Source: Chrysophaeum taylorii (taxonomy: Eukaryota; Sar; Pelagophyceae; Pelagomonadales; Pelagomonadaceae). Taken from it: 28,099 bases of DNA. Made by a program: the position numbers and the translations under genes. This document shows positions 6,990-28,099 of this stretch, in pieces (the stretch's first letter is position 1; every line of letters starts with the position of its first letter). The notes under the pieces are model-generated. The model had not been told where the DNA came from. It did not search any database and saw only the letters and a program-made list of their open reading frames with translations. The stretch spans positions 1 to 28,099 of the forward strand of contig JAQMWT010000554.1 in the NCBI GenBank assembly GCA_029834535.1, read 5' to 3'.

Positions 6990-7395
6990 TACCAGCACCG
7001 GACTGGGTCCAAACCTAGAGAACAGTAAAAATCACTGTGCCCCTGGTAGAGAATGGTGGCAGGGTAGGCCACTCTTCTCGTCCTGTCCTCTTACGACACA
7101 AAGAGCGGCACGGTGTTCGACACAGCGATTTTGGGTGTTTACGTGTGAGTGTGAGATTAAGGGGGGAGGGGCCCTAACCCTAAATGGAATTTTCTATATC
7201 TAGGGATGGAGAGTCGACTTATGATAGCAAGATACTCTCTTCTCGAGAGAAAGGGATGACATCACTAGGAAACTGTGACATCACCAGGAAAGTAAGGAAG
7301 GGCGTCCCGTTGAGCGGGTACAAGCCTTAAGGAGTGGGGGTAAGCCTTAGCGAGCAGGAGTTGCCGCCACAGGACTCCCCTAGTGAGAAAACGAG
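6990..7395 (-). mobile_element. Gypsy-type LTR (minus orientation)
   Basis: Read on the minus strand, this segment lies directly after the integrase ORF and before the Gag-like ORF. A purine-rich stretch AGGGGAG (around 7375-7381) follows the integrase end and could be the polypurine tract. The segment between about 7000 and 7210 is clearly related to 21350-21580 read on the plus strand. Shared blocks are TAGGGTTAG, the CGCTGTGT block, a block ending in AGGACAGG, and a terminal CACAGT-ACTGTTCTCTA block. That second copy identifies it as a dispersed LTR. The exact ends are not certain: the 5' end is probably near 7370-7390, and the 3' end near 7010, followed by a possible primer site around TTTGGACCCAG. 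Confidence 0.6.
7257..7291 (-). promoter_or_regulatory. Direct repeat with CRE/ATF-like TGACATCA cores in LTR U3
   Basis: Two 16-base units, 7257-7272 and 7276-7291, differ at one position and read TGACATCAC-N-AGGAAA on the plus strand. TGACATCA resembles the bZIP (CRE/ATF) core. Tandem sites in the upstream half of an LTR are typical of enhancer repeats. The binding role is inferred from sequence only. Confidence 0.4.
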
Positions 7396-7401
7396 CTGCC
7401 C

Positions 7402-8990
7402 TCAGCGAGCTCGACGAGAATCACGAGCCTTGGCTGAACGAGCGTCTCGGGAATGGATTTTCTTGCAGACGCGCTCGATGACAGGTCCGGGGACGCGTCC
7501 ACTACGCAAAGTGAACGTAGGGATCAACACATCGATCTCATGCGGAGCGAAGTCGGTGACACAGGGAGTGGTACTGTTGTTGACCTTGGACTTGTCTGTG
7601 AAACTGCGACCGTCCACGCCCTTGTACTCCGGCTTAAGCTTGCGAGTATAGAGATGTGAGGTGGGCTTGTAGTAAGAGACCTTATCGTGCGGACCGAGAT
7701 CAGCGTAGAAATGCAGAGCGACTCGATCATTCACAAAATCATAAGGCTCATAAACTTCAGCCACATAGATCTTCTTGCGCCAATCGGACCGTTTGTTATC
7801 GGGGATCCGAAAGACGACGAATTTACCGTGCTTGAACTCATCTCGGAAGGTCTCCTTGGGCTTAGGCACGACTCGATCGACCACGGGAGAAACCATCACA
7901 GGGGTGATCTGACTGACATTAACAGTACGGCGCTCCGGAGGAGAATCGAGAGACTCAATCCTTTAGGTAACCGGAGACAAGCTTTCCACAATAACAAAGG
8001 TCCAGCGCCATTCCGGTCGAAGCTTATTTTGGAGGAAAGGGATGTAGAGCAAAACATGTGACCCTTCCTCGTACTCCACATCGACATGGTCCGCATTGTA
8101 GGCAAGTCTTTGGTTCCGGATGGCCTTCTCGCGAGCTTCGTTCGCCGTGGCGGTGTAGAATTTCAGCCTCTCGCGAGTCTCTGCCACAACATCGGAACGA
8201 GTTTTACGCAGGCGGCGGACATCGAGATCCATGATCGTATAATCCGTCGGCAATAGAGGCTGACGGTTGAGACGAAGCATGAAAGGTGAGATCCGAGTTC
8301 CCGGAATGAACTTGTGATTGTAGCAAAAAGCGATGTACTCCGCGAATTCGGGCCAGTCCGTGATTTTGCGGTCTTGAAGACACGCACGGAGTAAAGCCTC
8401 GATAAAGCGGTTTACCCGTTCAGCAGGATTGGCCTGAGCATGATACGGGATCGTGGTATTATACCGAACATTGAAGAGGTGACAGTACTCCTCCATCAAT
8501 TTGTTGACGAACTCCTTACCGTTGTCGGTACGAATCCGCCGAGGCAAATAACCTTTGAGTAATATATTCGCGACAAAAGACTCGAGGATCGCCTCAGCAG
8601 TCTTGTGGTGCAGTACGTCGAGAATCAAGAAATGAGAAAATGGATCAAAGAGGACGATGAGATACGTCTCGGGACCTGCACTGGGCAAGGGTCCAAACAA
8701 ATCCACACCAAGAACGGCGCGATCGCCATAATACACAGGTTGCTGAAGAAGACCTGCGCTCTTGGGTTCAGGCGTGCGAGCTTTCTTGCACACCAGACAT
8801 CCAGCAATGTAGGCACCCACCTCATTAGACATGTGGGGCCACCAAAAACGTTCAAGTATTGACTGCACCGTACTTTGACGACCCAGGTGACCACCATTGA
8901 GAGGGGTGTCATGGCACAGTCGGATGATGCGCGTCCGTAAAGTCAGGGGTGCGACTATCATCGGGTGCAAGTCGGGGCGGCACGGTAGAG
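7402..8990 (-). pseudogene. Ty3/gypsy integrase with C-terminal accessory domain
   Basis: The product would insert reverse-transcribed DNA into the genome. The zinc domain is visible as H-x7-H followed by CLVC. The catalytic core has Asp in VDLFGPL, Asp in RTDNGKEF and Glu in NPAERVNRF, the last two about 35 residues apart, as in the retroviral-type DDE integrase family. One in-frame TAA (7963-7965) separates the core from a further 165 codons (7402-7899). That segment has an SH3/Tudor-like flavour (KKIYVAEVYEPYD, VALHFYADLG), where many gypsy elements carry a chromodomain. A frameshift near 8970 links it to the upstream linker. The copy is inactive, but all catalytic residues are retained. 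Confidence 0.85.
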
Positions 8991-9515
8991 GAATCCCTTC
9001 ACGACTTGATAAGGATAGTTGGCTCCGTACCGACGAAGAGAATGGCCCTGAGCCATGCGATAGCGAATGTCTTCGCAAGTAGCATCAGGGATCTGCTCTA
9101 TGGCTAAATCTTCCAAAGTCAAATTGTCCGGAATCTGGTCGATGTACTCTTGGTAATCATCAGCATCACGGAAAATGCTAGGTTGGGTCTGCAGACGAGT
9201 CTTCTGACGTTGTCTCGTAGCGTGAGACGTAGCCAATTGCATCGGATCGTCGCCACAATCTTCTTCTTGCTCTGCAGGCAACTCAGTCGTGACAAACGAC
9301 AAAATGACATGACAGCCAGGTAATGGTACTCCTTTGTCATCAACAGGTCGAGGAAGTCCTTGGCACACTAAGTAAGCGTGGTTCAAGGGCTCACCGAACT
9401 CATCCGTCTCGATGACATGATCGATAGGATTGCGAGAGAGGCAGTCAGGGATGCTCATTCCCGGTGACTTCCCTGGCTTGTAGCCCAATTCAGGATCAAA
9501 ATTGGCAAGCCGCAT
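8958..9515 (-). pseudogene. Gypsy pol: RNase H tail and RNase H-integrase linker
   Basis: This frame begins with the end of the RNase H domain: FDPELGYKPGKSPG then PDCLSRNP, equivalent to the family's PGK-N-xADALSR ending. An acidic linker of about 110 residues follows, then the lead-in to the integrase zinc domain (YPYQVVKGFLYR). It is joined to the RNase H frame by a frameshift near 9515 and to integrase by another near 8970. Confidence 0.75.
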
Positions 9516-9971
9516 ATCGCCCGTCGAGCTAATTGTCCAGACGAGTGCTTCGCCTTCCGTAAAAACGTCAAATTGCGGTGATCCGTTTCAAAGATCGTTT
9601 TGTGCCCTTCAAAATAGGAGCGAAGATGCTCGAGAGAAAGAATAACTGCCAGTAGTTCTAGCCGGCGGGGCTCATAGTTCCGCATCTCTTTCGGCACAGC
9701 TCTGCTCCAATACTCAAACGCTCGTTCCTCTCGTGTCACCTTGCCGGTGTCGTCTTTGACTTCCACGAGTTGGAAAAGATAAGCGCCCTGACCATCCTTG
9801 GAGCATCCGAGCTGATCTAAAAGGGACGGTCGTAGTCCGGGTGATAGACTCCGCGAGAGTCCACCAAGGCTTCAATGATCGTATCCCACGCTTTCTGGCA
9901 ATCGGGCGTCCACTCGAACGGAACACCTTCAAGACACAATCGCCTCGACGGCTCTACAATATTCGAATAAC
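9455..9971 (-). pseudogene. Gypsy pol: reverse-transcriptase end and RNase H core, 5'-truncated
   Basis: The segment opens with the connection typical just before gypsy RNase H (FEWTPDCQKAWDTIIEAL, then a D-A-S-like first active-site region). It continues with NYEPRRLELLAVILSLEHLRS and ETDHRNLTFL, the expected Glu and TDH motifs. A TAG and a one-base frameshift near 9810-9825 break the frame. The reverse-transcriptase palm with YxDD, the protease and the matching gag are absent: the homology stops where the copia LTR begins at 9972, so the element was cut at that junction. Confidence 0.8.
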
Positions 9972-10285
9972 TGCAGAGAATTCGGCTAGGCAGTGGTTAG
10001 ATCACCGAGTGACCATCCCGTATCACCGCGCGAGTCTGGCAAGGTAGGTTTCAGGGAACTAAAGGTAGGGGTCCCCCTAGCCTCGGCACACGACAGACGA
10101 TACATAGCAACACATCAGTGTAACATGTAATTACTACGTACCTGCGGGACGCGCTAGACCATGATGATGAGCGTGAGCACAGATCAGAGGACTATTCGAC
10201 TGTGTAAAAAGGAAGAAGAAGGGTAAGGAAGAGATCGCTTTCTCAACGGACGGAATAAGGGTAGGAGTTGGCAGATTTCTCTGCA
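9972..10285 (-). mobile_element. Copia-type LTR, minus orientation (copy D)
   Basis: This 314-bp segment is about 80 percent similar by eye to 21819-22136 in the same orientation. On the minus strand it starts TGCAGAGAAATC and ends GAATTCTCTGCA, giving 9-bp inverted termini with the TG...CA ends of an LTR. A GA-rich polypurine run (CGAGGGGG) abuts its start, so it is best read as the 3' LTR of a minus-oriented element lying to its right. The perfect primer site seen beside the other copy is missing, and no 5-bp target duplication is evident. Confidence 0.7.
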
Positions 10286-10293
10286 CCCCCTCG
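10286..10293 (-). other. Polypurine tract before LTR copy D
   Basis: On the minus strand CGAGGGGG is directly followed by the LTR start TGCAGAG, the position where plus-strand DNA synthesis is primed in LTR elements. Similar AGAGGGGGA runs occur inside the plus-strand copia element. Confidence 0.5.
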
Positions 10294-10891: not shown

Positions 10892-11222
10892 GAGGACGGT
10901 GCCTCATGAATCCTGAGCCTTGCGAGGGCATCCGCCCTCCCGGCGTAGGTTGGCACCTATTCGCCTCCCGGGCGGGCCGGTTGGCAGCCGGAACGTTCGC
11001 AGTGGGACGGGGTATGGCCGGGGGGCGAAGACGGAAGGTTATCGACGAGTTGGTTGTCAGTCACATCGCGGTCTCCTCGTCGCATGGCGACAAGCTTGAT
11101 GGTCACTCTCCGCCGACCGACCTTTCGGCGCTCCTCGTCTACAGGCCCGTGATTCCGGACTGGCACCTGTCGGTCCGGCCTGGCTCCCATGCTCGGGAGA
11201 GGTCTGAAGTTAGTTTTAGTTA
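10892..11222 (+). mobile_element. SINE-like retroposon, longer copy
   Basis: The last 249 bases (10974-11222) are nearly identical to 14441-14690. The copy ends in an imperfect TTAG repeat tail and is flanked by a 17-base direct repeat with one mismatch, GCAACGTCAAAG[C/A]GATG, at 10875-10891 and 11223-11239. A 3' simple-repeat tail, a longish target duplication and a 5'-truncated sister are the marks of LINE-mobilised retroposition. The extra 5' part (10892-10973) may hold a polymerase III promoter; only a weak B-box-like GGTTGGCACC (10948-10957) is visible. The open frame through it is probably meaningless. Confidence 0.75.
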
Positions 11223-11239
11223 GCAACGTCAAAGAGATG

Positions 11240-12734: not shown

Positions 12735-14440
12735 ATGTCAAAACAAAAACCAATATCCACTACGGATATCTACAAACAAGAACAAATCCTCGTTGATAAA
12801 ATCAACGCAGGATTGCGTTTCCAAGACAACTCAACCAAGGTGAACTTACAAATTAAGGTACTTCGCAGGCATATGACAAGTCCATACGTGGACGCGTTAT
12901 TCTGCTTCGATTCATATGAAGCTTACACCCGGAACGCTCCGGAGTATAACCAACTTCTTGAACAAGAAGTTGATATCATCTTCGCTCAATGGAAAGCTGA
13001 ACAAGTAAATGATTTACACTTACCGGATGAAGATGCCCTGCCTGATCATCTTTAAACTTGGTACGTCAATTCATCACATCAACTATCAGTTGATGCTCGT
13101 AATAATCTCGAACGACTTTACTACCAAGAGTCATACAATCTCGTTCGTCCCGAATTAAATGAGGATGTTAAACGTGTCCTCACTTTATTAGATACCCGAC
13201 TCCCTAAATCAATTGTGTATGATTCATCTCTAACTAACATATCCTTTACAGGTCTCTCTAATGCCGACTGGATCAAACACTGCGAAACTTATGCAGGTTT
13301 CTTGTACACATTCTTTAATCTGGAATCACAAGAAAAAACCGCACTCGCCATGTGGCCTCAATTAAAGAAGATATATGCACTTACTGCACATCCTAATAAA
13401 CTACGTGCAGTAATGCTTTTAGCTTACCATTACTATGAGACAGTGTCTTGTACAGATGTCACTGAGCTTAAATCCCAGTTTAATCGAATGTCTTTAAATG
13501 TTAATTGGTATGCCCATGTGTTTGTCGAACAACTCCTTGCTCTCCAATCTCAGGCAAAGCAATTAAATAATGATGAAGCATCAATCCAATTTAATGATTC
13601 CATAATCACTCTCAAAGCCCACGAGGAGATCTACCGTCTATATGCTAATCCCTCGGATCACGAGCGCTATTCTCAATCTCTATTGGAATGGTGTAAACTC
13701 TACGAGACACGCTCTGGGAACAACTCGATTCACGATCCTGAATTGTTAAAGCTAGTTGATCCTAACGACGTTCGTCCGTTATTGGAGTTCCTGTTAAAGA
13801 TATACAATGAAACAACGTTTTCCTCTGACCGACGCTCGGATAAACCCGCTTCCTGGATCCCTTACATCCCTGGTACTACCGCTACCAAGCCACCTAAGGT
13901 ATTATTGATGGGGACTATTCATCAATCCCACGACTCTCTAAACAATGCTTACTCGTTGTTAGCTACTGTGGCTGGACAGTCTGGCTTCAACGCTCGTAAG
14001 CTTCGTAATGCAAAAGATAAAGCATCGACAATTTCACCTCGTGACACGTCGTACTATCGCCCACCTTCAAATTATAACGTCAAAGGTACCAGCTTCGATC
14101 GTCCTGTCTACTCACACTCCTCTAACCGTAATGCACGCTCTAATATGTCTCTTATGGACCGGGCTACTTATCAAGTTGATCGTCTTCGCCACCAGTTTGG
14201 TAAACTACAGGAAACGAATCCCAACCCCTCTACCGACTCCAAAATGGCACAGGAGGAAATGAAAAGCTTACTGAGTACCCTCTGGACAACCGCTTCTCAA
14301 GCTTCGACACAGTCCTTAGATCCTGATGAAGCCACCCAAGTTCATCTCTACTTATCTCGAGTTGATACTATGTCCAATACCATATCGAGCCTCTTAGAAG
14401 CCGATAAGGAATCTCTTGTTTCAGAAGAAAAGTATCAAAC
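12735..14440 (+). pseudogene. Copia Gag, broken by a stop and a SINE-like insertion
   Basis: A single frame runs from ATG 12735 to the insertion at 14441 with one TAA (13053-13055). Removing the 260 bases of insertion plus duplicated target returns to the same frame, which continues into the protease. The first 350 codons are mostly alpha-helical in character (for example WPQLKKIYALTAH, LKSQFNRMSL), as in copia-type capsid domains, followed by a Ser/Asn-rich basic segment. I see no CCHC zinc knuckle. The element context identifies it, since Gag sequences diverge too fast for recognition by eye. The codon use is more A/T-rich than in the neighbouring gypsy and GC-rich relics. Confidence 0.7.
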
Positions 14441-14690
14441 GGGCCGGTTGGCAGCCGGAACGTTCGCAGTGGGACGGGGTATGGCCGGGGGGCGAAGACG
14501 GAAGGTTATCGACGAGTTGGTTGTCAGTCACATCGCGGTCTCCTCGTCGCATGGCGACAAGCTTGATGGTCACTCTCCGCCGACCGACCTTTCGGCGCTC
14601 CTCGCCTACAGGCCCGTGATTCCGGACTGGCACCTGTCGGTCCGGCCTGGCTCCCATGCTCGGGAGAGGTCTGAAGTTAGTTAGTTAGTT
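14441..14690 (+). mobile_element. SINE-like retroposon inserted in gag, 5'-truncated copy
   Basis: It is flanked by an exact 10-base target duplication, AGTATCAAAC (14431-14440 and 14691-14700). It ends in TTAG repeats and matches the last 249 bases of the copy at 10892-11222 almost base for base. It lacks that copy's first 80 or so bases. Insertion in the same strand as gag disrupts the frame. Near-identity of the two copies implies recent activity, later than the insertion of the copia element. Confidence 0.85.
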
Positions 14691-14700
14691 AGTATCAAAC

Positions 14701-15556
14701 TGAAACATCTGCTCCTGCAGCGTCCCCCGGTGATGCGGAGCAGAGGGGGACTGATACAGAGAAAATGTTCCACACTTTTCTGTCCATTAAAGATGATGAA
14801 ATCGATAACATCCCTCAGCCGCTATTGCAGCACATAAATGCTAAAGCTCAGAATGCTATCGTTCGTCGTCAAGCTCGGGAAACTTTCTCGCACTCTGAGC
14901 TCCCCAGTAATCTACCCAATGAAGATAATGAAGATGGTGCAGATCCCCCTGTGTTGCTACCAAAATTAAACACTGGTTTTACAGTCGCCGTTGTGCCTTC
15001 CGAACAAACGCAAAGTTTCATGACACAGTACGTGTTTGGTCAAAGCTCAACACATGCCTGTTATGCAACAATGCTTAAACTGTACAACGAGTACAATTTG
15101 CCGCTAATGACTACGCCAGGACATGCTGACACATGTGCTTCTCAACATGTAATTAACTTTAAACGTTACGCTGATCCTATCCACATCGCAAAGCTACCCG
15201 AGTCCTTATCACCTGCTATCCAGACTGCCACGGATACGCAGAGTATCACACATGCTATGATTATAAGGACTGTCATTCCCGCTCTCCCAAAGCATCCAAA
15301 TGTGGGATATGTAAAGCTAGACGTTGCGCTTTTCCTACCCAAGCAAAACGACCATAACGATCCCGATCTGCACATCATCAGCATGACTCAATGGGGACAA
15401 GATAAACTTGGTATACATCTTTATGGAGTTGAATTTAAAGGACAATCTTCTATCCAGAGTAAAATTGATGATAATGTCAAGATTACTTTGTTTGGACTTA
15501 ATAACCTAACAGCCTACTATACCAATTTATTCGCTACAACAAGCAAAGGCGCGTAA
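14701..15556 (+). pseudogene. Copia Gag C-terminus and aspartic protease
   Basis: This is the continuation of the gag frame, open to TAA at 15554-15556. The protease is seen around 15115-15150 as GHADTCASQHV, which corresponds to the copia-family W-x-DSGAS-x-H active site with Cys replacing the usual Gly. A downstream segment (VKLDVALFLPKQND then IISMTQWGQDKL) matches the family's V-L-x-VP...L-x-S pattern. The enzyme would cleave Gag-Pol. The D-T-C-A-S variant may be a decay mutation (Gly to Cys needs one base change) or a lineage trait. A QRG-containing peptide just upstream (PGDAEQRG, 14727-14750) recurs after integrase. Confidence 0.7.
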
Positions 15557-15557
15557 A

Positions 15558-17969
15558 ATGGAACTTCGCTCACTACAGTTCAGACTATGTGCTTTTAATG
15601 AACAATGCGAAATGCTTAAACTATATTCCACCCTCATGGAACGCGTAATTTACGTCCCATGGCTCAAAACCATCTTGGAGTCAATGCATTCGCAGCTGCC
15701 TTGCATACGCAAGCATTTCCCACCTCCCGTATGACGCAAGGTTACCACACGTTTGCTTCACACAGTAACTACGTCTCCTAGCTCACGAACACCTACTGTA
15801 ACTCTACTTTGCTCTGGGATGTCCACTCCTGCCTTCTTGGCCTGCGCTTCTAATGACTTGCAAATCAACATCAACGTTAAAGTTCTTGTTGAGAGCGACG
15901 ACAATCTCACGCACATGCTACGAAGACGATTTGGTAATTCCATCGAAATTTTCTCATCCCTACCCAAGTTTCTGACATACCTCCATCGAGCATCGGACGC
16001 TGAACGTGCACGATATTACACCGATATAGTGGAACTGACATCACCATGCACAAATCGCAACATAATCAATGGGAGATCCATTTCCACCTTCGAGCGTGAT
16101 ATGGATGATTCCTTGTTTCCAAGTGCTCTAAGTGTACTTGAGCTTTTAAAGCCGCTCGTTCTTTTCACGGAAATGACACCACCACACTTCGCATCGTATG
16201 AAGACCATATACGAGTTGCTAATCTCATCTTCTCAACGATGCACTATACGGTGGATACATGTGACCGATTTCCATGCTATCTATGTGGAGATTATCAAGC
16301 CAGAGAAAGATGGATCCTCGTTGCACGCGAATATAACACCGGCCATCTTGATCTGCTTTCCTGGCCTAACAAACGAGTCACTTCCTTTCTGGACATTGCA
16401 GACCACGCTAATTCCATCAGTCGCAAGTTAATAGTCGACGAACCTTGGACGCAGGTCTTTCACGACGTACCATTCGTGTCCACACCTAAAACCTACAACA
16501 TCTTTAGTCGTACAGGATCCGTGCGCTTAACTGTGACTGAGCTTGAAACCTTAACCATGCTGTTCCTTCGTCTGCACTCTAACAAAACAGTCGAACATCC
16601 CAGTCAAGATGAAATGGAGGGCATTTCTAACTTTCGCCTGGGATTCTTGACTAATTCAACAAAACCACATGCTTGCATGAGATCTCCTATTGAACTCAAA
16701 GCTTTCGTGCTCCTCTATAATATTATGGGACGTTTATTCCCTAAATCTATCACATTACCTGTGTCCTTTCGTATTACAACTATCGAATCTCACCAACCAT
16801 CTCACCGGTTATTCTTAAATAAATCCTCTACTTCCTCCATCATTTACATCACCGGTGGAAGAGACACAAGCGGAGACATAACAGTTTCCAACTCCTCTTC
16901 TAAACACCAGGCACATATAAATGCTTTTGGCGAAACCTATACCTTCCTAACACATGATGCCGGAATCGATAAGACTGCTTATCTCGAACCTGTTACTGGT
17001 TTTCTTTGGCTTTGCCAAGCATACCATAATAATAATGAAAATCAAGACACGCGTCGTCTAGTACAAGCACTGGTTCCCCATACTTCTCCTGTATTTCACG
17101 ATTCTTTTGTCTTCTACCCTCAGGAAAATCGTCTCGAATTTATCGATAAAATGTTTGCTTTAAGTGACATGCATCTGTCCCAAAGCAGATACCTGGGCTT
17201 TATTACATCAAGCGATAGGAAGATGGGTGCCAAAGTTCATTCTATATACACTCCCACTCCTACCATTCGTGGAGTTGCCAATATGCTCGTGTACGATCCA
17301 CGACTCGATCGCATTCGACACTACTCAACTCGTGAATTGGCACGCGCCAATAACTTCACAGCGCACCAAATCAATTTTCTTTTGTCTTTGTCCCCGGCCC
17401 TATGCTGTGACATAATCGCAAATGCTATTCCGGCTGGAACATATCATATAATTTATAAACATTTGTGTCAGCTTGTCTATGACTTGCGTAAATTAACGCT
17501 ATCACCATCATTTGACCCTGATCATGCTTCTCTAACCAAAAACTATAGGTCAACCTTCTTCACCAATATATTCCCCACAGACACATCCTTAATATTACAC
17601 CAGAGTTCCATTACAATGTTGTACATCTCCAATAAAAAACTCTCATGTTGTGATAATCTTGCTTCTAACCACGAACTTCCATCTTTTCATTTCGATTCAG
17701 TAGCTCATGTCTTCCTCTCTAACACCTCATCCGCAGATATATCATCTCCTACTAAAGAAAGACAAATTCCTCTTATAACGCCAAGACAGCTCCATGAGAA
17801 GCATGCGTCCTTCGATAAGAAAGTTCATGCCAGGGGCACCCTCGCATTTCGAGATGCGCAACAACGAGCTACCAATTTTTACAACATCCACCATTCTAGT
17901 GATTCTCAAGCTATAAAAGCTGTTCAGGTTATTGCCAGTCCTGGACACCACCCATCGGACGTACCCTAG
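15558..17969 (+). pseudogene. C5-cytosine DNA methyltransferase domain in copia Pol
   Basis: The enzyme class transfers a methyl group from S-adenosylmethionine to cytosine C5 in DNA. Numbering is from the TTG at 15753. Motif I is VTLLCSGMSTP-A (16-27). Motif II is VLVESDD (44-50). Motif IV, DIVELTSPCTNRN (91-103), has the catalytic Cys at 16047-16049. Motif VI is LVLFTEM, with its Glu at 16170-16172. Motif VIII, CYLCGDYQARERWILVA, has QxRxR from 16296. A long variable region of about 320 residues follows. Motif IX is IRHYSTRELARANNF (17313-17357), and motif X is IIANAIPAGTYHIIY (from about 17415). The frame opens at ATG 15558, one base after the protease stop. It holds one TGA (15732-15734) and runs through TAG 17967 into integrase. 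The canonical PPCQ is SPC-T and ENV is TEM, so it is a diverged member. About 150 residues before integrase hold no clear motif. Confidence 0.82.
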
Positions 17970-18770
17970 CGTAAGTTCTGTGTGGATTGTACGATTAATC
18001 AAAAACGCTTTCCTCATCCACATCACCCTACCAAGCAACCATCATTCGAAAAAATTTTCCAACTGGTGAAGCCTGGGCATGTGACGGTGGTTTTCGTATC
18101 CGTTCTCTCGGAATGGGGATCCTTTCGACATATCATTGTTTTTAAGTGCCTCATTTCTAAATTTTTGTTAGTGTACTTTTGTCGTAGCACTAACTCCAGC
18201 GAATTTTGCAACGCCCTTGAGTTTGTCCGCAATTTTTGCTCTACTTATGTTCATGTGCAACTAAAACAAATCTATTGTGATTCCTTTTAACCCTATTTAT
18301 CTCGGCATGTTACAACCCCCTTCCGTGTGGAACACGGTATTAACATGTCCGCGTTCCCCCCTTACTTACATGTCTTTAATCATGACGTAGAAGCCGCTGT
18401 TGGTCATACGGCCACTGCCGCGTCTACACGACTCCGGCATATGCTTAATGTATCCTATAAAGGTCACCTCCTAACAGATCCGGCACCACACTACCCGTGG
18501 GCTGTTATACATGCCATCCAATCGTATAATCTCCTCCCTAACGTTGCTCTCGAACGCATTTTTAATAAAGTCCTAAGCTATAATAAAGTCCTAAGCCCCC
18601 AACAAGTTTTGTTATACCAATGTAATGTTCCCCAACAAGACTACCTCAAACCTTTTGGTTCTGTTTGTTATCTGCATTTGGAACCTAACGAATTTCATAA
18701 ATATGAGCCTCGATGTCGTCCTTACATCTACTTATGTGGTGCTAATGTTATAAACCCTTAATAACACCCC
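17970..18770 (+). pseudogene. Copia integrase, degenerate
   Basis: It continues the methyltransferase frame beyond TAG 17967. The zinc domain's CVDC is at 17979-17990, followed by a K-x-R/F segment. The core is recognisable: second Asp in YCDSF just before TAA 18288-18290, then GINMSAFPPYLHVFNHDVEAAVGH with the Glu about 36 residues on. The C-terminal copia signature L-x-PFGSVCYLHL is near 18648-18680. The first catalytic Asp is replaced by Val (VTVVFVSVLSE), one base change away. A frameshift follows near 18755-18770. An 18-bp in-frame tandem duplication (18563-18598) adds six residues. The copy is inactive. Confidence 0.8.
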
Positions 18771-19145
18771 ATGTTAATCATTTGGCCGATGTTGTCCTTA
18801 ATCCTGAAAACGGTCAAGTCCGTGTTTCCTCTAAACTGACTTTTCCTCATCTCATTTCTAAATCTCCTCCCGATTACGAACAACATCCCCCACCCGCACC
18901 TTCACCCGAAATACCCTTTTCTGTTCACCGCACCCCCAATGATGCGGCGCAGAGGGGGAATGCTATGCCTACCGACACTGACCACGAGAGGGGGACTCCT
19001 TCTTCTCCTCTCCGTGCTCCCTCTCCCGTTCCCGCATGTGCTCCAGCTGCTTCTGCACCCGCTACTTCCGCCACCACACCTACATCTGAAGTGTCCTCCA
19101 ACACTTTGCCACTTTTACCATCTTATCGGTCCCTCTATTCCCAGG
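18771..19145 (+). pseudogene. Pro/Ser-rich spacer after integrase; element ends before reverse transcriptase
   Basis: The segment starts with the usual integrase tail (DVVLNPENGQVRVSSKLTF) and becomes Pro/Ser/Thr-rich, as in the spacer between integrase and reverse transcriptase of copia elements. It contains a second QRG peptide (PNDAAQRG) and two AGAGGGGGA runs (18951-18959 and 18987-18995). Around 19145 base composition jumps from mixed to GC-rich, and the sequence becomes the reverse complement of a Gag-like gene. The copia reverse transcriptase, RNase H and 3' LTR are therefore missing from this window. Confidence 0.6.
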
Positions 19146-19150
19146 ATGTC

Positions 19151-20178
19151 CTACGTCTCACCCGTGGTTTCGGCTGCTTTGTCCGATCCTTCCGGTTCCG
19201 GCGTGATCGGTTCCTGGGCGGGTTCCTCTACTGGTGGCGACTCGCTGTTTCCGCTGCCAATATCGCGGCCGTGTCCGCGGCGGGTACCCCCTCGGGGAGA
19301 GTGCGGCGTCGCCCTCGACGTTGAATCGGGGATGATATCGTTGTCGGTTGTGCTGCCGGCGGCGTCATGGTCGTTTCGGTCGGGCGCGTAGCCGACCGCA
19401 TCCGCGGGGTTTTGTCGGCTTCCGTGGGTTCCTTCTCTTCCTCGTGGGCTCGCGGACGATTCGCTGGCCCCGTGCGCCGGATCGGCGGTTCGCTGCTCGG
19501 CGGCTCGGAGTCGGATTCGTCGAGATCCGATCCGCAAGGCGATTCGGGTCGCGGTGGTCGCGCTCGCTGCTCTCGACGTGTCTTGAGCGAGCGCACTTCC
19601 TCCCGGAGATCTTGGATTTTGTTTGCTGCGGCTTCGCGAGCGTGCTCCGCGTCCTCGCGGGCGCGTCGGAGCTCGTTCTGAAGGGCTTCCTTCTCCTCAC
19701 GGGTCGCGGTTTCGAGAAGAGCCGCCGCCTCTTCGATCTGCGCCGCGATTTCTTGGGCAAACCGATCGCGCTCCTCCTCGCGCTCTTGCGCTTGCTTTCG
19801 ACTCTCCTCATCTTGTACTCGGATCCGCTCTTGCAGCAGGCTTCGCTCTTCTTCATCTTGCCGGGTGCGCTGCTGCAGCTGGTCTTGGAGCAACGATACC
19901 ATCTCCTGCAGCTCGCGAACTGCTCAGGTGCTTTCGGCGGCGCGCTCATCGGCGGGTTCGGTTCGAGTCGTGGCTGGGGCGCTTGGCTGCTCGCCCGTCG
20001 ACTCTTCATCTTTTCTCTCTTCGGCTTCAGCCGGTCGTTCGGTTTCTCGGCCTGGTTCGTGTGCGGCGGCCGGCGCCGGCGCGGGTGGCTGCTTCGGCGG
20101 GGTCTCTTTTTCTTCCGCCCCTTCTCTCCCGGCGTCGGGGGGGACGTCTTCATCTCGTATGATGCGTCGCTTCGGCAT
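19151..20178 (-). pseudogene. Second Gag-like coiled-coil relic, GC-rich
   Basis: The minus frame starts at ATG 20178 (MPKRRIIRDEDV). It is acidic and Pro/Ala/Glu-rich for about 80 residues, meets a TGA near 19924-19926, and continues in frame as a strong coiled coil. Glu, Arg and Gln heptads run from about 19900 to 19600 (for example LQERIRVQDEE and EEREEERDRFAQE). A Pro/Arg/Ser-rich tail ends at 19228, with an alternative frame to 19151. Highly charged coiled coils are common in Gag-like proteins of algal and protist LTR elements, but no zinc knuckle or pol domain is present. The high GC content sets it apart from both neighbours. Confidence 0.45.
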
Positions 20179-20576
20179 TGCTGCTGGCGCTGTCTCTTTC
20201 AGTGCATCTCTTTTGGCTTGGCCCGTCTTCTCGGACTCCGCTCACTCTTTCCGGTCGTGCGCTCATCGGCGGGTTCGGTTCGAGTCGTGGCTGGGGCGCT
20301 TGGCTGCTCGCCCGTCGACTCTTCATCCTTTCTCTCTTCGGCTTCAGCCGGTCTTTCGGTTTCTCGGCATGGCTCGTGTGCGGCGGCCGGCGCCGTCGCG
20401 GGTGGCTGCTTCGGCGGGGTCTCTTTTTCTTCCGCCCCTTCTCTCCCGGCGTCGGGGAGGACGTCTTCATCTCGTATGATGTGTCGCTTCGGCATTGTTG
20501 CTGACGCTGTCTCTTTCAGTGCCTCTCTTTTGGCTTGGCCCGTCTTCTCGGACTCCGCTCACTCTTTTCCGGTCGT
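19942..20576 (-). repeat. 317/318-bp tandem duplication
   Basis: Two units, 19942-20258 and 20259-20576, begin GCGCTCATCGGCGGG (diverged in part at the ends) and end CCGGTCGT, with few differences. The unit length is not a multiple of three (317 and 318). Each unit carries its own copy of the start peptide MPKR-IIRDEDV (starts at 20178 and 20495), so the frame is not continuous across the pair. Confidence 0.9.
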
Positions 20577-20890: not shown

Positions 20891-21339
20891 CTACCGGCGG
20901 TGCTTGTGCTGTTCCCAACTCTTGGCTTGCGGTTGCAGGTTCGGAGATCTCGCCGATGTAGCAAGATCTCATATCCTCCACCACCTGCGGCAGGAAAGGA
21001 TTATGCGCGCTGACTTCTTACCCTGCTTCGACTGTGCCCTCGACGTCTCGAGGGTGCCGAGCGGGTTGAGGAGCGCTTCCTTCCTGTCGATCAACCTTAA
21101 AACTGCCCACGAGCTTCAATCCGAAGACTCGTGAAATGATTTATGGTTGAGATTAGTCGATTTGAAAGAGTAAACGCCTGGTGGCGTTGCAATACGTGCG
21201 TCAGGGGTTGAAGTAGAGTCCAGTAAACGGGAAGTGGGGTAGAGAACTCGATAGAACTAGGGGTAAGGATGGCGGTGTAAGGGTTACGGCCACAGGTGAG
21301 ACGCTTCCTGCTTAGTTTGATCCAGATTTCGCTCACCGA
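20891..21339. other. Relic sequence without recognisable gene
   Basis: Short frames only, with no domain or repeat that I can identify. It may be the leader of the second Gag-like relic (minus) on its left and the unrecognised front part of the LTR (plus) on its right. Confidence 0.3.
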
Positions 21340-21590
21340 TTTCAATCTGTGAGGGCGTAGAGATAGAAAATCTGAATTAGGGTTAGTACCCACTATTCTA
21401 GGGATAGTTCCCTTAAATTTAGCACCCTTTGATTTAAGAAAACGCTGTGTTATTCACACCGGCTGTCCTCGTTTTAGGAGACAGATTCGAGGGCAGACTA
21501 CCATTGCTCTCACGCTCTGCTGAAGGGTAGCACAGTAGAAATTACTGTTCTCTATATTCCAAGCGCGCGTGCAATCAATACAGGACTTGT
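21340..21590 (+). mobile_element. Gypsy-type LTR fragment, plus orientation
   Basis: This is related to the reverse complement of about 7000-7210, with several ordered blocks: TAGAGATAGAAAAT, TTAGGGTTAG, ACGCTGTGT, GGAGACAG, GGGCAGACTACCATT and CACAGTAGAAATTACTGTTCTCTA. The similarity ends near 21575, giving the likely LTR 3' end. The front part is not recognisable. No associated coding region is seen to the right, where copia leader sequence begins. Confidence 0.55.
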
Positions 21591-21803: not shown

Positions 21804-21818
21804 GCTGGGCCCATAACC
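21804..21818 (-). other. Perfect half-tRNA initiator Met primer-binding site
   Basis: The plus strand reads GCTGGGCCCATAACC, identical to the anticodon arm of eukaryotic initiator tRNA-Met. The minus strand is therefore its 15-base complement and starts at the last base of the LTR (21819-22136). About 200 bases of leader-like sequence follow on the minus strand before the gypsy LTR fragment cuts it off. Confidence 0.85.
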
Positions 21819-22136
21819 TGCAGAGAATTCCGCTAGGCAGTGGTAAGATCACGGAGGAACCATCCCGTCTCACCGCGTGAGTCTGGCAGGGCAGATTCGG
21901 GGGACAAAGGGCACAGCCCCCCTAGCCTCGGCACACGGCAGACGATACATAGAAACGCACCAAGGCAACATGTGATTACTACATACCTACGGGGCGCGCT
22001 AGACCATGATGATATGATGATGAGCGTGATCACAATATCGTAGACTAATGACTTGTGTAAAAGGGGAGAAGGGTAAGGAAGAGATCGCGTTCTCGACGGA
22101 CGGATAAGGGGTAAGGAGTCAGCAGATTTCTCTGCA
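21819..22136 (-). mobile_element. Copia-type 5' LTR, minus orientation (copy C)
   Basis: This 318-bp LTR on the minus strand starts TGCAGAGAAATC and ends GAATTCTCTGCA, with TG...CA and 9-bp inverted termini. Its end is proven by the adjoining primer site. It is closely similar to 9972-10285 and more distantly to 11893-12249, sharing TTCCTTACCCTTC and the stem-loop region. The rest of the element is missing after the leader. Confidence 0.85.
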
Positions 22137-22644
22137 CGCCAATGTTATTTTTCACGCGATATTTTTAAATGTGTCTGTTACCAGGAAGAAAGAGCTATAA
22201 GAACAGGGCCGCAGCCACGAGGACATCCTTGAGCTTTGAAGCGAAATGTGTAGGTTGAAAATAAATGCGCAGTCATTCTTAGGAAGGCGTATTTCGTTGT
22301 GCTAATGGAACGGTTAGGGCGTGTAGCGCAATCAACACGCAGTTCTGGCCGCATACGCCCTATACATACGAAGAGATAGCATGTCTTGAAAAGAATGGCG
22401 TCACAGCTGCAAAACCCCTAGCGAAGTATGCTTATAGCATTGCCTAATTACATTCTAGACAGAACAGACAAAGTTGAATCATAGAGAGGATTCCATGCTC
22501 AAAATGAGCCTAGAGGCTGCAAATATTGTCAAGTTCACCATATCGCACGCGCGTAAAGCTACGCTAGGTGAAATGAAACGCAAGTTTATTTAACGTGCTG
22601 ACGCACCTACCGTGCTCAAACCCTTCAGCGTCATAGTCACATCT
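22137..22644. other. Intergenic region downstream of the transporter
   Basis: No open frame, LTR or repeat is recognised. It should contain the 3' UTR and polyadenylation region of the minus-strand transporter gene, but no clear signal stands out. Confidence 0.4.
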
Positions 22645-23777
22645 TCAAGCGTCGAACTGATTAGGCTTGAGATCTTGGACCTTGTGTTTACGGCCTTTGT
22701 GATTATAAACACACGCGCTCAAATGAATCAGAACACTGCCAAAAATGAAGGTGGATGAGGGTTGAAAACCAAACAAAACCATTTCAAGAACACAAGCGGT
22801 AACCGTTGAAAATGCTGCTGCAAAGCCCTTGAGGATGCTGTCAGCATACTTCAATATGAAAGCAACATTCAATCCACCAAAAGCCTGCAGTCCGATTACA
22901 AGCCAGACTAGCTTTGAGTACCCATAGAAGAAGCCGCGGCTATGGATTGTTGTTAGATCTTTAACCAACACAGAGGCCATTCCAATAGTAATTGAAGAGA
23001 CACCCATCTGTATGTTTCGAATCCACATTGACGTGCGCGAACCTTTAAGGATACTTTGTTGATATACACCCGAGAACCCTGAAGTTATGGCCGCCACAAA
23101 GACTGCCATGAACCCAAGGCTGCTCTCGAAAGTGCCCTCGAGAGTAGAAATAGGTGCCGTGGTTGTTTCCTGTCTCCCTATCTGAACAACCGTGACTCCT
23201 AAAAAGAGGGCAAACAAAGCCAGCCAACGTTGGGTGTCTAGTTGCTGTCCAGTAAGTGTCACTGAGAAAACAGCGCTTGTGAGGATTTTCAAGTTATAAG
23301 CGACCTTGTACGGTGTAGCACGCAAGTGCGATAAAGCAAAATACAGCAAATTATTTTGCGCGACATACAGCACTGCAGGTAACCTACTTCCGAGTGTCAC
23401 GTCTGGCAATAAAACGAGCGTTCACTGGACGCGGAAGACGCCACGATAGTTTCGCAACATCTCTGGGCTTACACACGAGCTCTTTGTGGAGTACCCCAAT
23501 TAACTTAAGCAGCCTGGATTCATATTCTCTGGCTACATGGTATTACACAAGGCGTCACTCTGGCATCAGGCGAGCCGCCAGCCTCTCGGCAGAATAGTAC
23601 ACCAAGACAAAACAAAAATTTGAGAATCTCCATGCAACACACAGCAGTAGATGACAGATACAGTGGTCCAGATTTATGACGTGAGTACCGCAAGCAGAGC
23701 ACGAGTGCGGTGTCCTGAGCAACGAGCAACCCTAGGGATCCATACCGCAGAAGAGTGGCTTTCGAGTAAGCCAGCAT
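22645..23777 (-). CDS. Nucleotide-sugar transporter of the UDP-Gal/UDP-GlcNAc (SLC35A-like) family, three exons
   Basis: Golgi or ER membrane antiporters of this family import UDP-sugars in exchange for UMP for glycosylation. Exons are 23777-23603, 23532-23445 and 23383-22645, with GT-AG introns of 70 and 61 bp. Together they give 1002 bases, 333 residues plus stop, the usual family length. Family landmarks occur in order: LRYSR and YLSSTAV (exon 1), VLHKELVCKP (exon 2), a QNNLLYFALSHL block, YNLKILTSAVFSV, SGFSGVYQQSILK, WIRNIQ, and LKYADSILKGFAAAFS. The peptide across intron 2 aligns with the family without a gap. The intron 1 acceptor could be 4 bases further on. Start: ATG 23777, just before the first hydrophobic helix. 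About ten transmembrane helices are expected. The substrate cannot be assigned. Confidence 0.9.
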
Positions 23778-23852
23778 CAACCCTTCCACTTGGCAGTCCT
23801 TTGGCAGTCCTTAGTATACTGTACCTAGAGGGTATGGGTAGACAAGTGCAGG

Positions 23853-24166
23853 CCAGTAAGTTCACCTACTCCCAATCTCTAACCCCAGTAAGTTCACCTG
23901 GTCCTAGTAAGTTTCGTATAAGTTCACCTGGTCAGTAAGTTCACCTAGCTCATACCAACTCCTTTGAGCTCGTCGCTCTCGCCTCCGCCAACTTAAGCTG
24001 CTTTGATCCGCACGCGCCGCCAACCTTTGAGTTTACTCTAAAAACTTTACTCTAAAACCCCCAGTAAGTTCATCTGGTCCCAGTAAGTTCACCTGGTCAC
24101 TATATTCACCTAATCCCAATCTCTAACCTCAGTAAATTCACCTGGTCCCAGTAAGTTCACCTACAG
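23853..24166. repeat. Array of AGTAAGTTCACCTGGTC motifs upstream of the transporter
   Basis: About ten full or partial copies of a 15-18 base motif (CAGTAAGTTCACCTGGTCC and variants) occur in two clusters, 23853-23948 and 24059-24166. A longer unit, TTCACCTA-N-TCCCAATCTCTAACC followed by the motif, appears in both. Spacing is irregular. The array lies 75 to 390 bases before the transporter's ATG, so it may be a promoter element cluster; the reverse complement contains an E-box-like CAGGTG. It could also be a degenerate minisatellite. Confidence 0.7.
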
Positions 24167-24192
24167 TGCGCGTGTAGACGCCGGGAGGGGGC

Positions 24193-24752
24193 TTATCGGT
24201 ATTGCGCAGCACGTGTGGGGTAGGGTGGAGTCGTCGACTCAGAAGAGGTTATCCTCGGGGTTGCCGATCGACAGAGAGCCACGTAGAGCTGGACGTGGCA
24301 GAAGACGGGCTTCGCCAAGAGGACGCCGACCTCGCGGGGCGTCTGGCCCTGGCTCTTGTTGATCGTTTGGCGTAGGCGGGCCTTAAGGGATACAGGTTGG
24401 AGTAGCCTCGGTGACAACGACACGATCGATCATGTATCTGGTACTGTTGCAGTGGCCATGCGACGGGTCGAGGTTGCGAAGACTTTAAGCTCGCGATCAA
24501 AGTCAGCATGCCGTTGGTTGTCAGGGAGTTGAAAACTCTACTGTAAAGAGCGAGGCGTCGTCTTCCGACCCAGCCTAGTCAGCCGAAAAGAACTCCGACG
24601 CCTCGTCTCCGGGAAAAAAAGGCCGCGGTCATGCGCGCGTTGTCAGCATCGACAACATCGTTTCGACGGGGCGTGAGAATGGCGCGCTGAAAGAGCCGCC
24701 GCGGGTCGTGGAAATAGTCTGCGAGGTCGCCGTAGACGGCTTGGAGGATCAC
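24193..24752 (-). pseudogene. Helitron-type Pif1-like helicase, C-terminal relic
   Basis: On the minus strand, in shifting frames, the C-terminal landmarks of Helitron Pif1 helicases appear in order: RAILTPRRNDVVDADNARM (near 24640-24700), PGDEAS, a NSLTTNGM stretch, NLDPSHGHCNSTR, and INKSQGQTPREVGVLLAKPVF followed by QLYVALCR (24290-24370). These correspond to the N-x-x-V-x-x-IN, NLDP-x-x-GLCNGTR and TINKSQGQ...QLYVALSR motifs of the family. Several frameshifts and stops break it. Rep, Walker A and Walker B portions are not found to the right, so it is a fragment. It begins right beyond the transporter's motif array. Confidence 0.85.
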
Positions 24753-24760
24753 TGTCTGGC

Positions 24761-24853
24761 TCTCGCGCCTACCTGATCCTTACTCTCGCGCCTACCTGAT
24801 CCTTACCCTAAATCGAGGGACAGACAAACAAACAAACAGACAGACAGACAAAC
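24761..24853. repeat. 23-bp tandem duplication and ACAG/ACAA microsatellite
   Basis: Two exact 23-base units (24761-24783 and 24784-24806) are followed after 12 bases by alternating ACAG and ACAA tetranucleotides (24819-24853). They lie next to the helicase relic. Confidence 0.85.
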
Positions 24854-24855
24854 AT

Positions 24856-25099
24856 CTGTCGATCAGTAGTTAGGATTCAACATAGTCTGCATTGTCTCTA
24901 GCCCTGTTGAGAGACGTTCTCCCTTGTTTCCCCAAGCTTGAGAAACTGGACCGGGACGGAAGGTGTTCAAGGTTGGTATTAGCGCCGCAGAGGCCACCAA
25001 ACATGTGCTCAAGACCCTTCGTGACCCCTAGAGGCACAGAGACCGTCGATACGACTGGTGGCAGTTTTGCTTTCCGCCTTGGTTTCAGCCAATCATCCA
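24856..25099. other. No recognisable feature
   Basis: Short frames on both strands and nothing with family motifs. Confidence 0.3.
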
Positions 25100-27363: not shown

Positions 27364-28099
27364 TTAGTCGTTCGTGCTCGTCGCGTGCGGCACCACGCGC
27401 TGGCGCTTCGCATCCCGCGTCTTGGCTCGCGCCACCTGAGCACGCTTGCTGTTCTTTTCGAAGGATTCGGGACGGAGTTCCTTGATAATCTCCGGGAGGA
27501 GATCACAGATGGCCTTCCAGTTGGATTCTTGACCCGGTTGCAGACGCGCGTTGACACGAGCCTCGAGCAGTGCGACACCCTGCTGCTCGCCGTGCTTTTC
27601 GAGATAGTCGAAGATAGGCTTGCGCTTCTCGTACGTCGTGTTAAACTTGCGGCTTTTGCCTCTCGGATCGCGCGCTCTGGCGCTGCGCCAGGAGAAACCC
27701 GTTTTGCCGGTACCCGGGCGCCTGATGGGACCGTAGTACTCGTCAAGGTACTTGAGAGGAGCACCGATGCCGACGCCGCGGAAGTACTCTTCGGCCAACT
27801 CCCCTATGGTCGCTGGGCATGAGGCGAGCTTCGTCGCAAGAGCGAAGTTAGGAAGCGCGGGGGGGGTCAACCGGCCAGGTCGATTTATCCGACACAACCA
27901 GTCTTTGTTGACCAAACAGAGGGGCGTCGTCTGAGGCGTCGTTTGAGTCGGCGGCCGAAGCCCGTGGCGGTGTCTCTGGAAACAAAGCGGGAGTGGTCGC
28001 AGGGGGGTCCGATATCGCGCCGGTGAGACGCCGCGGCGCGTCATAGCCACATATTTGGTCGTGGATCTCGCTGATGTGCCTAGCAAGGCGTCCGCTTTA
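27364..28099 (-). CDS. ORF with GCR1_C-like DNA-binding domain, partial at window edge
   Basis: The minus frame is open to the window edge and stops at 27364-27366. From about 27811 to 27560 it reads TIGELAEEYFRGVGIGAPLKYLDEYYG, then FSWRSARA, then YEKRKPIFDYLEKHGEQQG. This resembles the GCR1_C domain (W/E-Y-x-G, L-E-x-x-YG, WR, Y-x-R-R/K-x-I), known from yeast Gcr1 and from proteins linked to Crypton elements. A Lys/Arg-rich C-terminus follows (AKTRDAKRQR). Upstream of about 27915 another frame (RRLARHISEIHDQI, Ser/Pro/Asp-rich) looks more protein-like, so a frameshift or an intron near 27915 is likely. It could be a host regulator or a transposon protein. Confidence 0.45.
   Translation of the reverse strand, partial: KADALLGTSARSTTKYVAMTRRGVSPARYRTPLRPLPLCFQRHRHGLRPPTQTTPQTTPLCLVNKDWLCRINRPGRLTPPALPNFALATKLASCPATIGELAEEYFRGVGIGAPLKYLDEYYGPIRRPGTGKTGFSWRSARARDPRGKSRKFNTTYEKRKPIFDYLEKHGEQQGVALLEARVNARLQPGQESNWKAICDLLPEIIKELRPESFEKNSKRAQVARAKTRDAKRQRVVPHATSTND

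Follow-up and report, generated by a model that had tools for sequence, protein, structure and literature searches.

A cytosine-C5 DNA methyltransferase-like domain in the pol region of a Ty1/copia retrotransposon family of Chrysophaeum taylorii

Introduction

Retrotransposons mostly figure as targets of DNA methylation, not as its source. The locus described here, from the genome of Chrysophaeum taylorii, raises the question whether a Ty1/copia element can bring along its own cytosine DNA methyltransferase (DNMT), and what such an enzyme would do for it. The window, i.e. the whole stretch of 28,099 nt that was analysed, makes up one complete contig (C554) of an assembly of 70.8 Mb in 697 contigs, and its content is eukaryotic. 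The original prediction, made from the letters alone, had placed a C5-methyltransferase frame before the integrase of a plus-strand copia element; this reading is borne out by conservation across the family, by profile-profile comparison with shuffled controls and by sister families.

DNMTs are known in LINE, DIRS and Gypsy elements (PMC5890265, sections concerned), and one sentence in the section concerned of PMC12344493 places some DNMT3 members in LTR Copia and DIRS elements, citing an earlier report on streptophytes and dinoflagellates. The pertinent sections of PMC9998398 and PMC12477816 contain no such copia element. In the literature searched, which was mostly open-access, no report was found that describes a copia enzyme other than a Dnmt3, a genome in which both LTR superfamilies bear DNMTs, or a UGA ahead of the DNMT. 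The capture of DNMTs itself is already published; what is new is that the enzyme is divergent, that a UGA precedes it and that a single genome holds several DNMT-bearing LTR families.

Structure of the window element

The plus-strand element is a degenerate member of a Ty1/copia retrotransposon lineage, here named copia-a (Table 1). Its gag region has an in-frame stop at 13053, the frame is lost between the protease region and the DNMT, and the integrase is broken by in-frame stops at 17967 and 18288 with an altered frame between them (by eye, compared with the relative L051). Since the copia similarity stops after the linker, the reverse transcriptase is missing from this copy. In Pfam searches of relatives a copia-type reverse transcriptase was found in L052 (RVT_2, 4.9e-36), and rve reached 0.0098, below its cut-off, in L051. 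An RVT_2 match lies at most 6 kb downstream at 16 or more of the 60 places of the family (57 of 150 RVT_2 matches used). The expectation that DNMT and integrase share a reading frame holds, as the two form a single frame in relatives of the window copy. No LTR pair was found in the slices of L051 and L052, which were possibly cut too short to hold one.

Table 1. Coordinates of the copia-a copy, its methyltransferase-like motifs and the neighbouring gypsy fragment in the window
Feature	Position	Strand	Basis or remark
Truncated Ty3/gypsy pol (RNase H, integrase)	7337..9970	-	86-88% to L054, 75% to L059
gag region, copia-a copy	12736..14439	+	ORF list; Retrotran_gag_2 only 0.41; blastn to another copy 93%
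253-bp mobile insert in gag, GTTA-repeat end, short flanking direct repeat	14440..14692	+
Protease-like region, DTCAS motif	14693..15556	+	motif by eye, no Pfam match
In-frame TGA before DNMT frame, probable readthrough site	15732..15734	+	context TGACGC, conserved
Open frame of 744 aa: C5-methyltransferase-like domain (~15792-17480), then integrase start	15735..17969	+
Motif I, LLCSG	15804-	+
Motif II, VES	Glu codon 15891-15893	+
Motif IV, SPC, putative catalytic Cys codon 16047-16049	16035..16058	+	Cys in 22/22 copies and in sister family
Motif VI, EM, putative catalytic Glu codon 16170-16172	16164..16184	+	Glu in 22/22 copies
Motif VIII, GDYQARERW, QxRxR	16287..16313	+	family and sister alignments
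Motif IX, RHYSTRELARANNF	17316-17357	+	profile alignment; motifs IX and X together 17316..17447
Motif X, IANAIPAG	17415-	+	N563, P566 in 22/22 copies
Copia integrase region, broken	17560..18761	+	SH3_retrovirus 8.5e-6, just under its cut-off
Linker after integrase	18746..19168	+	copia similarity to another copy ends at 19168

The sequences that we take to be motifs I, II, IV, VI, VIII, IX and X were read in the window frame in the predicted order, which is kept in 22 copies and in a sister family. Motif I of copia-a lacks the FxGxG form, and motif VI reads EM rather than ENV. The latter was predicted to be unusual in the form TEM; the EM is shared by all 20 aligned copies, among which TEM is private to the window copy, the 19 others having MEM and the sister family AEM. 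A variable stretch of about 330 residues lies between motifs VIII and IX in the window frame.

Several other features surround the element. LTR-like direct repeats at 9967-10289 and 21813-22140 (81%, 11.8 kb apart) frame the copia copy together with a minus-strand GC-rich gag-like stretch (by eye), and the latter contains a 300-bp tandem duplication (95%) at 19932-20548. A second, near-identical and SINE-like copy of the 253-bp insert with the GTTA end is located at 10973-11223, and the same insert occurs within the gypsy copy L054. A repeat of about 1 kb at 23842-24876 is 86% identical to an inverted insertion in the copia-a copy L051 (2017-3091). On the minus strand, 22645-23421 is a nucleotide-sugar transporter frame (PF04142, 6.6e-74), a host gene, and 27364-28098 a frame with a GCR1_C domain (26.3 bits, cut-off 23).

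Copies of the family and selection

The DNMT family of copia-a has at least 65 matches in the 70.8 Mb assembly, spread over about 60 places, so its motifs are not a product of chance, and the objection raised with the original prediction, that no other copies might carry the gene, fails. All family match counts given here are lower bounds; they probably include some doubles, since contigs C10 and C297, which are probably allelic or duplicated, carry copies of the same element at nearly the same coordinates.

Among the 30 best matches 19 are free of stops and 11 contain them. Ka/Ks was calculated for 22 stop-free copies, namely the 20 of alignment A1 together with L056 and L057; L058 and the stop-bearing copies were excluded. 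The median for the DNMT domain is 0.081 (231 pairs), with the farthest copy of this set at a Ks of about 2. G28, E53, C105, E146, Q188, R190, R192, N563 and P566 are invariant in all 22 copies, and P104 of motif IV is kept in 21 of them. The DNMT-like domain is under strong selection in copia-a, the family measured.

A conserved UGA before the methyltransferase frame

In copia-a the DNMT frame continues the upstream frame in the same phase, and a single TGA separates the two. The TGA was found in 29 of the 30 loci in which the site could be placed (34 examined), as TGACGC in 27 and as TGACAC in 2; with L009 and L051 being the same copy, this corresponds to 28 of 29 distinct copies, L001 being the window. 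At the corresponding position the sister family reads TGACTA. In 6 of 28 loci the reading frame preceding the stop stays open for 499 codons, up to the locus edge; the shortest has 63 codons and the window 74. The 130 codons preceding the TGA give a Ka/Ks of 0.126 (23 copies; 225 of 253 pairs with Ks >0.02; five placed loci with shorter frames or without the TGA left out), and the conserved in-frame stop therefore stands between two selected frames, with 0.126 upstream and 0.081 downstream.

UGA followed by C is a leaky context, and UGA CUA is among the classic readthrough signals. The conservation of an in-frame UGA makes readthrough in copia-a quite likely. In copia-a a restart at an AUG would truncate motif I, within which the first Met downstream of the UGA is found; the sister family has a Met immediately ahead of motif I, and there a restart that spares the motif is possible.

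Homology to cytosine-C5 methyltransferases

Searched by itself, the window protein matched nothing in Pfam (no DNA_methylase up to E 1), the PDB, the protein database, the viral contigs or NCBIfam. The suggested Pfam search of the window frame with PF00145 thus gave no match, and identification of the domain needs family profiles. Predicted structures of the domain alone and of the domain with a piece of P0003 (see below) are low-confidence models (pLDDT 35.7 and 29.9).

Profiles were compared with those of a second family, copia-b (L053), in which Pfam calls a DNA_methylase domain (1.1e-7, 32.1 bits), and of P0003. Against the pooled copia-b and P0003 profile copia-a alone reached 84.2% (E 7.4e-6; reversed profiles E 0.31), with motifs IV, VI, VIII, IX and X in register. 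Adding the sister family, for 24 sequences in all, raised the match to 95.6% (E 1.3e-8), collinear over 483 columns, with a score of 75.0 compared to a maximum of 26.9 in 100 column shuffles. Single partners gave weak matches, both for copia-a alone (copia-b 0.1%, P0003 26%) and for copia-a with its sister (1.5% and 30.7%). That the motifs arose by coincidence in a long pol spacer of unrelated origin, as the missing database match of the window protein and the weak single-partner matches might suggest, is very improbable in view of this score, its collinearity and a pooled partner that includes a family called DNA_methylase by Pfam.

The profile of copia-a with its sister did not rise above shuffles against the reference DNMTs (score 25.4, shuffle maximum 28.6) and found no PDB chain at E 5. 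The pooled copia profile matched the pooled reference C5 enzymes at 97.1%, and single references at 1.9% to 94.9%. Phage C5 enzymes were the best of the eight references (KP15 94.9%, CRP5 93.6%, SPR 87.7%, NatCom 76.3%), followed by a DNMT5-like host protein (63.6%), a relative of E. coli Dcm (10.1%), Dcm itself (2.9%) and a Dnmt2-like host protein (1.9%), in a reference set without any Dnmt3 sequence. The profile of copia-b and P0003 found M.HaeIII (0.0016) and M.HhaI (0.003) as best matches in the PDB, and TIGR00675 (dcm) matched copia-b at 2.9e-8, below its curated cut-off in NCBIfam.

From these sequence comparisons the domain of copia-a is very probably homologous to C5 methyltransferases. 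Its proposed status as a separate acquisition or a deep branch is favoured rather than proved: the copia profile matches the pooled references, the gypsy domains described below score no better than controls against the copia ones, and at identities near 20% to Dnmt1, Dnmt3 and Dnmt5 a tree would hardly resolve the point.

P0003 is a copia polyprotein of 2396 aa from ENA with 34 members, and was the only protein at E <=0.01 when the copia-b domain was used as query (E 6.9e-20; 7983 candidates scored). Its motif VI, NEMVPP, resembles the EMTPP of copia-a, and its reverse transcriptase is 38% identical to that of copia-b. Pfam gives no DNA_methylase match for P0003, which as a query in the protein search matched only itself. 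It is probably from another organism.

Other methyltransferase-bearing families in the genome

A Pfam DNA_methylase search of the genome gave at least 123 matches at E <=0.1, not all of them above the PF00145 cut-off of 22 bits. The sister family copia-a2 (L095) is 47% identical to copia-a, has the same catalytic residues and at least 78 matches, and yields no Pfam DNA_methylase match. Its DNMT, integrase and reverse transcriptase (RVT_2, 7.7e-42) lie in one frame of 1691 aa, in which the integrase matches, both before RVT_2, stay below the cut-off (SH3 0.00056, rve 0.0076).

Copia-b is present with at least 88 matches (77 candidates scored). In L053, where an LTR pair of 88.6% was found, DNA_methylase, a weak rve (0.0061) and RVT_2 (1.6e-38) occupy one frame of 1952 aa. 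Copia-b is without the UGA; its protease region and DNMT are in one frame, and gag and pol overlap in different frames. The window itself probably holds a solo LTR of this second DNMT-copia family, judging from the similarity of 21295-21554 to the 3' terminal repeat region of L053 (88%) and of 21399-21554 to the 5' repeat (82%).

In two related Ty3/gypsy families a DNMT precedes the reverse transcriptase and follows a protease-like stretch; the latter was recognized by eye with no Pfam match, and in L054 about 390 residues separate its motif from the DNMT. The first family, gypsy-1, has at least 129 matches and reaches 22.6 bits with PF00145 in L054 and 19 bits, below the cut-off of 22, in L059, whose DNMT, RVT_1, RNase H and integrase share a single frame of at least 2593 aa. 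The second, gypsy-2, reaches 37.6 bits (2.2e-9) in L092. The two DNMT domains match each other at E 9.7e-48 with 40% identity. A loss of motif VI in the gypsy domains was considered and rejected, as IEQE/LEQE fits this motif once L092 is aligned (by eye). The pooled gypsy profile matched the references at 82.9% (E 9.2e-6) over motifs I to IV, and at 68.8% when the two enzymes of the host itself were removed; its best PDB match (0.39) is a cytosine-specific methyltransferase. In the truncated gypsy pol of the window, whose similarity ends at 9970, no DNMT was found, though the family carries one elsewhere.

A common origin of the copia- and gypsy-borne DNMTs is unsupported, with E 0.25 between gypsy and copia and 0.31 in the reversed control, although saturation could hide one. 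As the two score like the reversed control, at least two captures of DNMTs by LTR elements are likely.

Proposed mechanism and alternative readings

The preferred reading, held with a moderate degree of confidence as a whole, is that of a captured and selected DNMT that is expressed by UGA readthrough and marks cDNA. The lineage would long ago have taken up a cytosine-C5 DNA methyltransferase gene between the protease region and the integrase. An occasional ribosome would pass the UGA and yield a Gag-PR-DNMT-IN-RT-RH polyprotein, from which the protease would release the DNMT, to be packed in the particle with reverse transcriptase and integrase. There it would methylate the element's own double-stranded cDNA, so that a new insertion would arrive marked. 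The mark would most likely serve a tolerated, self-silenced or disguised insertion, and a maintenance enzyme of the host may keep it. The position in pol, the low-output signal and the selection on the active site fit an enzyme that is packed with reverse transcriptase and acts on cDNA. A packaged DNMT acting on cDNA was already proposed for DIRS elements, two isolated DIRS-borne DNMTs methylate CG in yeast, and LINE- and Gypsy-borne enzymes gave no activity there, a result called inconclusive by the authors (PMC5890265, sections concerned).

The domain of copia-a is likely to be an active enzyme. It could instead be a former methyltransferase that has lost its activity and now serves the polyprotein in a structural or nucleic-acid-binding role, for example by binding RNA or cDNA in the particle. 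Such a role would suit the divergent motifs I and VI, the large variable region, the absence of a CpG footprint and the yeast results on LINE and Gypsy enzymes just mentioned, inconclusive as their authors hold them; a mere binder, however, would have no need of the catalytic Cys and Glu or of the arginines of QxRxR, which are invariant in all 22 copies and recur in a sister of 47% identity, and this role is therefore unlikely. As to the footprint, CpG depletion is absent in the 22 copia-a copies (observed/expected 0.83-0.99). In 18 copies the rate of C/T differences at third positions was 0.268 at CpG and 0.250 elsewhere, and the G/A test (0.282 vs 0.087), which is confounded by codon type, points the opposite way; no clear deamination pattern emerged in the copies of copia-a.

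Own cDNA is only tentatively taken to be the main substrate of the preferred reading's enzyme. Action in trans on the host genome or chromatin, favouring the elements as a group, would draw on the large pool of enzyme that hundreds of DNMT-bearing copies in several families could supply, and host-wide effects were suggested for Symbiodinium (PMC5890265, section concerned). A position inside pol after a probable readthrough signal would nevertheless mean little enzyme, packed with reverse transcriptase, and so favour cDNA; action mainly in trans is accordingly rated as rather improbable. Methylation of RNA, either that of the element or a primer tRNA, in the manner of Dnmt2 or Dnmt6, is still less probable. 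RNA methylation was suggested for LINE-borne enzymes in the same section, whereas the pooled copia profile is closest to phage C5 enzymes and hardly matches the Dnmt2-like host protein; with the low values for E. coli Dcm and its relative, this ranking does not prove a DNA substrate.

Host enzymes bear on the maintenance of a mark. Among L031-L050 and the further loci examined, the only PF00145 matches that did not look borne by elements belong to two genes, one Dnmt2-like (L031) and one DNMT5-like (L032), both classes being assigned by reading; the latter has an open frame of 2086 aa with PF00145 at 7.9e-18 and RING only at 0.23. Intron-split host genes can be missed, so that absence of Dnmt1 or Dnmt3 cannot be read from this search. 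DNMT5 of Cryptococcus is a maintenance enzyme. The section concerned of PMC11185503 likewise describes DNMT5 as such. A bolder and doubtful extension would make retrotransposons, and not the host, the main source of new cytosine methylation in this genome: copia and gypsy lineages would each have gained a DNMT, inserted after the protease-like region and before the following pol domain, and would stamp their cDNA, and the host enzyme would maintain the mark. If true, the inheritance of silencing would be common to parasite and host.

Relation to known systems

The closest described counterpart, KnitGypsy-Dnmt3 of Klebsormidium nitens, is likewise an LTR element with a DNMT in Pol that is under purifying selection (Ka/Ks <0.2) and keeps its functional residues. 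It is, however, a Ty3/Gypsy element with a Dnmt3-type enzyme, whereas copia-a belongs to Ty1/copia, and its divergent domain, some 560 residues long, lies between protease region and integrase and is preceded by a conserved UGA. SymbioDIRS-Dnmt3 and SymbioLINE-Dnmt of Symbiodinium share with the elements described here the many DNMT-bearing retrotransposon copies per genome, but are DIRS (with tyrosine recombinase) and LINE elements without LTR/copia structure (all from the relevant sections of PMC5890265). The Copia elements of PMC12344493 bear DNMTs like copia-a; theirs are named DNMT3 members, and the section concerned does not give their architecture. Within the present material, copia-b L053 and P0003 resemble copia-a in the position and extended form of the domain and in collinear motifs, copia-b differing by ENV in motif VI. 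M.HhaI, M.HaeIII and the enzyme of phage KP15 share the motif order I, IV, VI, VIII, IX, X with copia-a, but bacterial and phage C5 methyltransferases are free-standing and have a shorter variable region.

Implications

As Pfam and NCBIfam miss the divergent enzyme of copia-a, such elements may be commoner than surveys with PF00145 show, and if P0003 is from another organism, the association of copia and DNMT is not confined to the genome of Chrysophaeum taylorii. In a single small genome, copia as well as gypsy families have retained a methyltransferase-like domain in equivalent positions, after the protease-like region and ahead of the next pol domain. This offers a testable case for the ideas that an LTR element benefits from marking its own cDNA and that DNMTs were captured more than once.
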